Origin: Winogradskyella immobilis
Lineage (GTDB): Bacteria; Bacteroidota; Bacteroidia; Flavobacteriales; Flavobacteriaceae
Reading direction: 5' to 3'
Length of the DNA stretch: 64,000 bases
Assembly: GCF_021887715.1 (NCBI RefSeq)
Contig: NZ_JAIQXX010000004.1
Location: 124,001 to 188,000 of the forward strand
Shown here one piece after another: positions 43,912 through 46,483 of the stretch (its first letter is position 1; the number at the start of each line of letters is the position of its first letter). The notes under the pieces are model-generated. The model was not told the DNA's origin. It saw only the letters and a list, made by a program, of their open reading frames with translations, and did not search any database. The translations under genes and the position numbers were made by a program.

Positions 43912-44691
43912 ATGAGTTCAATAGAACTAAAAATAGAAAATAAAGTAGCGTACATAACGCTAAATAGACCAGAAGTATTTAATAGCTTCAATAGAGAAAT
44001 GGCTTTAAACCTTCAAAGCACGCTAGATAATTGTGATAACAATGACGAAGTGAGAGCAATTGTACTTTCAGGAAACGGAAAAGCATTTTGTGCTGGTCAA
44101 GATTTAAAGGAAGTCACTGATCCAGAATTAAACCCAGGATTTAAGAAAATATTAGAAGAACATTATAATCCAATAATTACAAGACTACGTTCTGTTAAAA
44201 AACCCATTATTGGAGCAATTAATGGTGTTGCAGCAGGAGCAGGAGCTAATATTGCATTAGCCTGTGATATTGTTGTTGCTCATGAAAAAGTTAGTTTTAT
44301 TCAAGCCTTTAGCTTAATTGGCTTAGTTCCAGATAGTGCGGGCACGTTCTTTTTACCACGTTTAATTGGTTTTCAAAAAGCACAAGCTTTGGCAATGCTT
44401 GGTGATAAAATTTCAGCAGAAGAAGCAGAAAAAATGGGAATGATTTATAAATCAGTGCCTTTAGAAGAATTTGAAGAAACGATTTCTAAACTAGCAGTTA
44501 AAGTAGCTAATATGCCAACTAAAGCTTTGTGGCTTATCAAAGAACTATTTAATAAGTCAATGACAAATACGCTTGAAGACCAATTGGCTTTAGAATCTAA
44601 ATTACAAATCGAGGCTGCAAGTAGTAATGACTATGCAGAAGGTGTCGCTGCATTTATAGAAAAACGTAAACCAAATTTTAAAGGGAACTAA
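43912..44691 (+). CDS. paaG: Enoyl-CoA hydratase/isomerase, probable PaaG
   Basis: Crotonase-fold enzyme, probably turning the ring epoxide of phenylacetyl-CoA into oxepin-CoA. The oxyanion loops are AFCAGQDLKE and NGVAAGAGANIALACD, and LIGLVPDSAGTFFLPRLIG contains the acidic residue typical of PaaG-type isomerases. At 259 residues the length is normal. It precedes the inserted DUF559 unit. Confidence 0.88.
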   Translation: MSSIELKIENKVAYITLNRPEVFNSFNREMALNLQSTLDNCDNNDEVRAIVLSGNGKAFCAGQDLKEVTDPELNPGFKKILEEHYNPIITRLRSVKKPIIGAINGVAAGAGANIALACDIVVAHEKVSFIQAFSLIGLVPDSAGTFFLPRLIGFQKAQALAMLGDKISAEEAEKMGMIYKSVPLEEFEETISKLAVKVANMPTKALWLIKELFNKSMTNTLEDQLALESKLQIEAASSNDYAEGVAAFIEKRKPNFKGN

Positions 44692-44707: not shown

Positions 44708-45139
44708 AATTGTCCCCTTGAGGGGACTTTAGGGGTGTAAACATCAGAGTGAAAAACAAAATAATTCCATATAACCCAAAATTAAAAGAATATGCAAGAG
44801 AGCTAAGAAAAAACAGCACACTTGCAGAAGTTCTTCTATGGAAAAACATTAAAAATAGAGCGTTAGGTGTTCAGTTTCATAGGCAAGTCCCAATGTTAGA
44901 TTATATCGCTGATTTCTATTGTCATGAAATTCAACTTGCAATCGAAATTGATGGCAATTCTCATGATTTTAAATATTTTGAAGATACAGACAGGCAAAAC
45001 AAGCTTGAAGAACGTGGTGTAAAGTTTATTAGATTTAGTGATTCTGATGTTAAAAATAATATGTTTAGTGTTTCTATGTCGTTAGAGGAAAAAGTAAAAT
45101 CTTTAAAAACACCCCTCAAGTCCCCTCAAGGGGACAATT
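44708..45139 (+). mobile_element. 432-bp DUF559 unit with 31-bp terminal inverted repeats
   Basis: The left end (44708-44738) reads AATTGTCCCCTTGAGGGGAC then TTTAGGGGTGT. The right end (45109-45139) is its inverted complement with a single mismatch (30 of 31). Each end also holds an internal palindrome, GTCCCC-TTGA-GGGGAC on the left and GTCCCC-TCAA-GGGGAC on the right. The unit contains only the DUF559 ORF starting GTG at 44749, and no transposase. The ORF runs through the right end into the next gene. It looks like a self-contained insertion of a nuclease-linked palindromic element; movement is inferred. Confidence 0.8.
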
Positions 45140-46071
45140 TAAAACAAACCCTCATACAAGCTCACAATAGAATAAAACCATTTATTCATAAAACGCCTGT
45201 ATTAAGTTCTAGCTTAATAAATGAAATAGTAGGTGCAAATATTGTGTTTAAATGCGAGAATTTTCAGAAGATGGGAGCCTTTAAAATGCGAGGTGCAGCA
45301 AATGCAATTCTTTCGCTTTCAGAAGAAGAAAGGCAACGTGGAGTCGTAACGCATTCCTCAGGTAATTTTGCGCAAGCGGTGTCATTAGCAGCTCAAAAAT
45401 TGGACGTTAAAGCCTATATTGTAATGCCAGAAAATGCACCACAAGTCAAAAAAAATGGTGTAAAAACTTACGAAGGTGAAATTATAGAATGCGAGTCAAC
45501 GCCACAAGCAAGAGAAGCAACTGCTAATAAAATAAAAGAAGAAAAAGGCGCTTCTTTTTTACATCCATCAAACCAAGATGAAGTCATTTATGGTAACAGT
45601 ACTGCTGCTATAGAATTGTTAGAAGACCACCCAAATTTAAATGTAATTTTAACGCCTGTCGGCGGTGGCGGACTTATTGCTGGTACTGCTTTAGCAGCAC
45701 ATTATTTTTCAAATAATTGTAAAGTTATTGGTGGTGAACCTATGGAAGCAGATGATGCATATCGTTCTTTGATTTCTGGTAAAATAGAAACCAATGATAG
45801 TTTTCATACAGTTGCAGATGGCTTACGAACACATTTAGGCGATCGTAATTTTCCAATTATTCAAAAGCATGTCGATAAGATTATTAGAGTAGAAGAAGAT
45901 GAAATTATAAATGCGATGCAACTCATTTGGGAGCGTATGAAAATTATTATAGAACCTTCATGCGCTGTACCTTTTGCTGCAGTATTGAAGAATAAAGAAG
46001 AATTTAAAAATAAAAATGTCGGTATTATTTTATCTGGCGGAAATGTAGATGTGAAAAATTTACCTTTTTGA
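44749..46071 (+). CDS. In-frame fusion of a DUF559 nuclease-like domain with a threonine dehydratase/serine racemase-like enzyme
   Basis: Residues 1-120 are a DUF559 (Vsr-like) domain with conserved Glu 27 (LAEVLLW), Asp 55 (IADFYC) and Glu 66/Asp 68 (AIEIDGNSH), apparently intact. Residues 121-130 are the translated terminal inverted repeat (KTPLKSPQGD). Residues 133-440 are a nearly complete fold type II PLP enzyme: PLP Lys 179 in GAFKMRGA, SSGNFAQA, and GGGGLIAGTAL, most like threonine dehydratase or serine racemase. No ATG remains at the natural start of the enzyme, so it seems to be translated from the DUF559 GTG. The enzyme is not part of known phenylacetate pathways. Confidence 0.88.
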   Translation: MKNKIIPYNPKLKEYARELRKNSTLAEVLLWKNIKNRALGVQFHRQVPMLDYIADFYCHEIQLAIEIDGNSHDFKYFEDTDRQNKLEERGVKFIRFSDSDVKNNMFSVSMSLEEKVKSLKTPLKSPQGDNLKQTLIQAHNRIKPFIHKTPVLSSSLINEIVGANIVFKCENFQKMGAFKMRGAANAILSLSEEERQRGVVTHSSGNFAQAVSLAAQKLDVKAYIVMPENAPQVKKNGVKTYEGEIIECESTPQAREATANKIKEEKGASFLHPSNQDEVIYGNSTAAIELLEDHPNLNVILTPVGGGGLIAGTALAAHYFSNNCKVIGGEPMEADDAYRSLISGKIETNDSFHTVADGLRTHLGDRNFPIIQKHVDKIIRVEEDEIINAMQLIWERMKIIIEPSCAVPFAAVLKNKEEFKNKNVGIILSGGNVDVKNLPF

Positions 46072-46123: not shown

Positions 46124-46483
46124 GTGAAAGCTAATGAACTAGAAAAAAGATTGATTCAATTTTCAATTGATATTATTCTGTTGTGTAAAACAATAGATAA
46201 ATCTTTTGCTTCAGAACATTTGGCAAAACAATTAATACGTTCAGCAACATCATCCGCTTTAAATTATGGTGAAGCTAGAAGCGGAGAATCAACAAGGGAT
46301 TTTCTTCATAAAATGAAAATTTGTTCAAAAGAGCTAAGAGAATCTTTCATAAATTTAAAAATAATGAAAGGTGCAAATCTAATTTCAGATATGGAATTAT
46401 TAGAAAAACTATCAAAAGAAAATAATGAGTTAATTTCAATATTCGTATCGAGTATTAAAACAGCATCAAATAAACTAAAATGA
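46124..46483 (+). CDS. Four-helix-bundle protein (23S rRNA intervening-sequence protein family)
   Basis: A 119-residue helical protein with the family pattern LEKRLIQFSIDIILLCKTI, then SATSSALNYGEARSGESTRDFLHKMKICSKELRES. Such proteins are encoded in rRNA intervening sequences of some bacteria and, in Bacteroidota, as stand-alone genes; their function is unknown. It starts at GTG 46124 and is bracketed by paa-type repeats on both sides, in a place (between dehydratase and paaH) with no pathway link. Probably a passenger of the repeats; this is inferred. Confidence 0.85.
   Translation: MKANELEKRLIQFSIDIILLCKTIDKSFASEHLAKQLIRSATSSALNYGEARSGESTRDFLHKMKICSKELRESFINLKIMKGANLISDMELLEKLSKENNELISIFVSSIKTASNKLK

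Follow-up and report, generated by a model that had tools for sequence, protein, structure and literature searches.

DUF559 nuclease genes framed by hairpin repeats and in frame with host genes: a probable class of homing-type elements

Why does a small nuclease gene between inverted repeats share one reading frame with a PLP-dependent enzyme? The question arises in a 64,000-nucleotide stretch of the Winogradskyella immobilis genome (hereafter the window). Repeat comparison and a match to PF04480 confirmed the 31-bp inverted repeats around a DUF559 gene reported in a preliminary description of this DNA, from which the paa gene names at the locus are also taken (Table 1). The repeats of 31 nt each are complementary at 30 of 31 positions (97%) and 370 nt apart, and the unit spanning both measures 432 bp and contains an intact DUF559 nuclease gene. 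The core GTCCCCTTGAGGGGAC is present at both unit ends, one copy having two mismatches when read in the same direction, and this palindrome gave a mean of 0.01 matches in shuffled window sequence. A 440-aa ORF with a GTG start (44749–46071) encodes DUF559 and then PALP in frame; PALP, DUF559, and MTES_1575 are the only Pfam families that it matches, with 89.9 bits for DUF559 (PF04480, aa 11–110, cut-off 20.6) and 250 bits for PALP (PF00291, aa 143–430). The frame indeed stays open through the right repeat, translated as TPLKSPQGD, into the PLP enzyme, and the nuclease residues Glu27, Asp55, Glu66, and Asp68, previously noted as intact, show no variation among 22 aligned sequences. The best NCBIfam match of the PLP enzyme is BhcB (beta-hydroxyaspartate dehydratase) at 408 bits, below the cut-off of 550. 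In relatives without a junction repeat, a TTG overlaps the stop of the preceding gene (TAATTG or TAGTTG); others have an ATG at about the same place, and these codons are probably the starts of their enzymes. The window reads AATTTAAAACAA at this position, and the junction comparison with these putative starts agrees with the earlier claim that the enzyme has lost its own. Directly downstream of the fusion (46124–46483) lies a small gene for a 23S rRNA intervening-sequence protein (PF05635, 44 bits).

Table 1. Features of the DUF559 unit and its surroundings, in window coordinates
Feature	Position	Strand	Description
Enoyl-CoA hydratase upstream	43912..44691	+	PF00378; its stop forms the left side of the insertion junction
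Left inverted repeat	44708..44738	+	Hairpin GTCCCC TTGA GGGGAC (44712-44727), then inward-pointing G-rich TTTAGGGGTGT, candidate third strand
DUF559 nuclease frame to right repeat	44749..45108	+	PF04480 (domain ~44779-45078), conserved residues, predicted fold
Right inverted repeat	45109..45139	+	Complement of the G-rich stretch, then hairpin; translated in frame
PLP-dependent dehydratase-like enzyme (PALP)	45140..46071	+	PF00291; own start lost, fused to DUF559

The predicted fold of the window DUF559 domain (mean pLDDT 85) was matched by Foldseek to 3hrl, a DUF559 protein (E 9e-6), followed by I-Bth0305I (3r3p_B, E 3.8e-3, probability 1.00, TM 0.63) and more weakly by Vsr (TM 0.54, E 0.19), and a profile search linked DUF559 to the same I-Bth0305I entry (E 4e-5). 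Judged by modelled structure and profile, the nearest characterised relative of DUF559 is the homing endonuclease I-Bth0305I, with the same predicted catalytic fold, which is presumably of the EDxHD (Vsr-like) type. Both are mobility-linked nucleases, but I-Bth0305I is a mobile intron protein according to its PDB entry, whereas the window unit is intron-less, read as part of a host protein, and equipped with hairpin repeats. No HUH tyrosine transposase was among the Pfam matches of the window protein, whose nuclease fold is Vsr-like. All six core residues were intact in 90 of 93 copies outside the window's family (including the best 80 of at least 571 candidates), and within the family in 58/65 fused and 30/32 free-standing copies, as counted on sequences of at least 80 aa.

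Hairpin repeats accompany DUF559 across phyla. C-rich hairpins adjoin the gene in most of 12 loci of a plasmid collection, from Alphaproteobacteria, cyanobacteria, Deinococcus, and Neisseria. A detector script for a hairpin with a G-rich arm and an antiparallel G-rich third strand was written after these loci had been viewed and was then run on 80 genome loci, all unseen except L210, a Neisseria gene also present as L198; these were the best 80 of at least 571 confirmed candidates and lean to Pseudomonadota. The motif occurred within 250 bp of DUF559 at 60 of these best 80 loci, and its density per kb was 3.33 over the first 250 bp, 0.29 over the next, and 0.00–0.19 beyond 500 bp. With a wider linker, the detector found it at 78 of the 94 loci from other families than the window's and on both sides in 44, a set comprising the best 80 of at least 571 together with the 12 plasmid-collection loci and E. 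coli; the same detector scored 1 of 197 base-shuffled flank pairs. In a comparison with control ORFs more than 500 bp away, 77 of 93 DUF559 genes of this set and 3 of 92 controls had the motif (Fisher p 1e-31, the loci not being independent). DUF559 genes without palindromes, which the preliminary description had named as evidence against its reading, thus amount to 16 of the 93 by this detector. Within the window's family the motif was present at 38 of the 65 copies that are fused and 17 of the 38 that are free-standing, and a stricter detector found it at 0 of 6 MetH copies. The left repeat of the window (L003) fits the script grammar in a short form with five third-strand positions. Among two-sided arrangements, hairpin-tail-gene-tail-hairpin is the most frequent outside the family (35/94, including the best 80 of at least 571), and 8 of 13 PALP sites also have it. 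The reverse arrangement occurs in RecG (10/18, with six more on the left side only), IleRS (1/1), and LeuRS (2/15, with ten more on one side only), and HemD shows both; one simple mobile unit leaves the existence of two orientations unexplained. In some copies of the window's family the linker seems by eye to contain CGTC. CGTC-tagged REPs were considered as the same repeat family and set aside on account of the triplex form of the flanking repeats.

The window genome holds three DUF559 genes, namely the window copy, a free-standing gene adjoined by a palindrome pair, and a gene that shares the frame of recG, lies within it, and has a different palindrome. The window palindrome has 11 copies in this genome (reversed control pattern, 0), several of which form inverted pairs with starts 42 bp apart, and some lie at several contig ends. 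In a search for an empty site of one solo repeat pair, the stretches fetched from the eight relatives that have the neighbouring gene contained no palindrome and provided no usable comparison. Across the genus the palindrome was present in all 20 genomes with the window's DUF559 clade (mean 11.1 copies) and in 16 of 40 others (mean 2.9), an association with a Mann-Whitney p of 2e-7, or 1e-5 after subtraction of two copies per DUF559 locus, that is uncorrected for kinship. Genomes without the clade have up to 32 copies.

DUF559 was detected in 43 of 60 genomes of the genus, 77 of 159 of the family, and 170 of 296 of the phylum. Leaving out 15 rows below 60 bits, 35 of the 61 genus hits lie in stop-free open frames of at least 439 aa, and five of the remaining 26 have a stop. 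The hosts include RecG, MetH, LeuRS, IleRS, and HisD, all above curated NCBIfam cut-offs, and HsdR, HsdM, and several DNA methylases above Pfam cut-offs; HemD is the best match of a further host, but below its cut-off. Outside the window's family, DUF559 interrupts IspE internally in a Gastranaerophilales genome (L233) and is fused N-terminally to agmatine deiminase (Nitrospirales, L222) and FolC (an alphaproteobacterium, L247). In such N-terminal fusions (HemD, agmatine deiminase, FolC, and other PALP copies) the host may be read from inner starts. The joints of the fused proteins are, by eye, translated hairpins such as PLKSPQGD and PPQSSQRE; this also holds for the insert ends, and Pfam and NCBIfam scans of the fused proteins matched no splicing families. 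At the PALP site the fusion is present in 13 genomes of two genera, including 12 of the 54 genus genomes that have the PLP enzyme. A one-off fusion in the window genome is thereby ruled out, and the earlier suggestion of a fresh event that made a new bifunctional protein is not supported. Two genomes have tandem free-standing DUF559 genes (L050, L051), and in a 1460-aa open frame from Rickettsiales (L258, 1624–6003) DUF559 lies between translated stretches that resemble repeats. A partial DUF559-like domain also occurs in a 717-aa frame of genome G184 (L297) containing NGVVVHNC, a motif that we take to be intein-like.

Host sites exist in filled and empty form. Among the 53 RecG loci examined, beside which eight further full-length genus matches are of empty size, 30 are empty with the same 54-nt junction length, 18 are filled, and five have short in-frame remnants, one of which (L147) seems to retain both insert ends. 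The remnants indicate that loss can leave scars; the empty form, by contrast, is uniform in length, and the empty allele of G024 has no visible scar next to its filled close relative G058. The preliminary description had proposed a comparison with close relatives and had allowed that all of them might carry the fusion; empty sites proved common. By eye, about 9 nt of the empty RecG allele appear to be replaced upon insertion, and no target site duplication, as left by some insertion sequences, was seen at RecG, the one site examined. At the PLP-enzyme junction, other palindrome-like repeats were noted by eye upstream of the enzyme in loci without DUF559 (L090, L092, L094, L150–L156, and others), which suggests that this junction may be a hot spot.

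On trees of the single host genes, the filled state requires nine changes in RecG, six of them forced by well-supported branches, and likewise nine in PALP, six of them forced; on the PALP tree, which included 35 of the 42 unfilled genus genomes, filled loci show hardly any clustering (35 of 500 shuffles gave a value as low). The DUF559 tree (122 rows, few columns, 25 random loci from outside the family, domains shorter than 85 aa dropped) needs 11 changes for 11 site labels. A single, strongly supported change suffices for each of the PALP, MetH, and HemD sites and one with support 86 for RecG, but LeuRS needs three. Of the five sites with at least six copies, four each correspond to a single DUF559 clade, a pattern that one old gain followed by many losses would also produce.

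Some insert pairs differ in history from their hosts. Insert versus host dS was 0.086 v 0.31, 0.10 v 0.29, and 0.126 v 0.39 in three RecG pairs and the opposite (1.46 v 0.37) in another; at PALP it was 0.149 v 0.676 and, oppositely, 1.74 v 0.169. Over 55 PALP pairs, insert dS was less than half of host dS in two and more than twice host dS in ten. In the four closest pairs of RecG inserts for which dS of the insert or the host is low, dN/dS was 0.04–0.20. Taken over all RecG pairs, third positions of inserts are slightly more diverged (0.461) than those of flanks (0.407), and insert distances correlate with those of flanks (Mantel r 0.57, a value reached in 0 of 2000 permutations). The flanks of L063 and L064 are 97–99% identical at 450–1350 bp upstream and 91–99% at 450–1050 bp downstream, above the 77–79% of their DUF559 domains. 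L064 and L066 share 92–99% identity in the domain, 91–94% upstream to 600 bp, and 57–90% further out. Both profiles would fit homing with co-conversion, and allele exchange by other recombination could also have produced them. Presence and absence at one site together with an insert history unlike that of the flanks are expected of a homing element, and both appear here, in few pairs and on single-gene trees.

Taken together, these comparisons make it probable that the unit is a selfish element of the homing type whose ends are REP-like hairpins and which survives within genes by being translated. In this reading it is an element of minimal size, in which a single Vsr-like nuclease, DUF559, stands between two REP-like ends that each combine a C/G hairpin with an antiparallel G-rich third strand. 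Spread would be mainly by homing: DUF559 would cut the unoccupied allele, and repair of the break from the occupied copy would transfer the insert with some flanking sequence. Splicing would be unneeded, since a single open frame runs through both repeats and the insert would sit at points that tolerate an extra domain; the host protein would be made with the nuclease domain inside or at one end. Comparison supports mobility, whereas the cutting of empty sites, the recognition of hairpins, and the mobilisation of solo repeats in trans are inferred, and the first colonisation of new sites and the production of the long fused proteins are likewise putative. Against homing stand the confinement of the signal to few pairs and the RecG insert/flank correlation, as vertical descent would give; interspecies recombination, for example by transformation, could also swap alleles without nuclease action. 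The preliminary description had likened DUF559 and its palindromes to a minimal mobile element of the REP/RAYT kind. The association with repeats (77/93 outside the family) supports this core of the proposal far outside the window. Overall, the data favour homing at fixed sites over free transposition of the REP type.

That transposition would be the work of a RAYT-like REPtron, in which DUF559 recognises the hairpin/triplex ends and moves itself together with the repeats, whether solo or paired, mostly to new sites, homing having no special role. Such a system would account for the repeats beside DUF559 in the outside-family loci (the best 80 of at least 571 included) as opposed to control ORFs, for the solo and paired copies elsewhere in the genome, and for the palindrome in 20/20 clade-bearing genus genomes against 16/40 others. 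We nevertheless consider it unlikely, since DUF559 clades are faithful to sites, same-site inserts and flanks disagree, no target duplication was seen by eye at RecG, and the enzyme family is a hydrolytic nuclease and not an HUH transposase; moreover, the genome association (p 2e-7, or 1e-5 after the two-copy subtraction) is uncorrected for kinship, and clade-less genomes reach 32 palindrome copies.

The main functional rival is that DUF559 is a VSP mismatch-repair nuclease or another housekeeping enzyme and that the repeats merely mark unstable regions where it happens to sit. The accessible text of PMC12907096 proposes that the Caulobacter DUF559 protein VsrA acts in VSP repair and may itself cause DNA breaks, and reports that methyltransferase-lacking cells need VsrA for an SOS response, and Vsr is among the weaker fold matches. 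We regard this explanation as quite improbable: it leaves unexplained the in-frame insertion into unrelated proteins, the repeats within 250 bp on both gene sides in 44/94 loci (including the best 80 of at least 571), and the presence and absence at exact sites. A very improbable alternative is domestication, with old fusions kept because the nuclease domain serves the host, as in RecG or restriction enzymes, and no current mobility. The low dN/dS of a few pairs, the six core residues kept in 58/65 fused copies of the window's family, and hosts that act on DNA (RecG, HsdR, HsdM, and methylases) agree with it, but metabolic enzymes and tRNA ligases are also among the hosts, close relatives lack the insert without a visible scar (G058 v G024), and insert and flank histories differ in some pairs.

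A homing-type element translated within its hosts has partial counterparts among known systems. Inteins reside in frame in conserved proteins, form site-specific lineages, and spread by homing. The DUF559 inserts resemble them in the first two respects and probably in the third, but no splicing domain was matched in the DUF559-fused proteins scanned, and the extra domain would remain in the product. We know of no gene carried by Rickettsia palindromic elements (RPE), whereas the DUF559 unit carries its own. RPEs are otherwise similar in being palindromes inside protein genes, as described in the accessible part of PMC3733652. REP/RAYT systems (REPtrons) and GTAG and CGTC repeats share with DUF559 units the short hairpin repeats, single or in inverted pairs, that flank a mobility gene. 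The flanking repeats of REP/RAYT are also dispersed in the genome, as is the window palindrome, but an HUH tyrosine transposase takes the place of the Vsr-like nuclease. CGTC repeats, which are without a dedicated transposase or enzyme in the available portion of PMC3733652, differ from the triplex form of the DUF559-flanking repeats.

The same hairpin and antiparallel G-rich third strand as in DUF559 repeats characterise the BoxC/PIT/TM repeats of E. coli. These motifs were linked to genome instability, and no mobility functions were reported around them in E. coli, in the accessible sections of PMC4666352 (2015), which also place BoxC-type and TM motifs always in intergenic regions of K-12, whereas DUF559 repeats lie around a nuclease gene and, in some hosts, belong to the translated frame. 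A search of open-licence literature found no paper tying DUF559 to such repeats or to in-frame insertion, and the accessible text of the RepRanger paper (PMC12306157) mentions no nuclease, DUF, or transposase. We see an even chance that DUF559 proteins are the unrecognised mobility enzymes of BoxC/intrastrand-triplex repeats in many phyla and include a homing class that is translated, not spliced, inside essential proteins. If so, a long-known and widespread repeat class, BoxC/PIT, would gain a candidate enzyme, and the genome instability reported at BoxC-type repeats would be the work of a DUF559 nuclease. It would be explained why some bacteria have a nuclease domain in RecG, LeuRS, MetH, and further core proteins, and a homing element could persist in essential genes without a splicing device. 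What moves BoxC would also become directly testable with YcjD of E. coli K-12. Its gene ycjD, the DUF559 gene of this strain, has one hairpin/third-strand motif about 175 bp past its stop. In the sapF-fabI region of E. coli, ycjD and its neighbourhood are variable, at least 80% of an 801-bp query being present in 3364 of 5426 genomes; ycjD-less strains were set aside as a clean empty site, as both strains fetched have an efflux operon there. Another E. coli strain seems by eye to have more such motifs.
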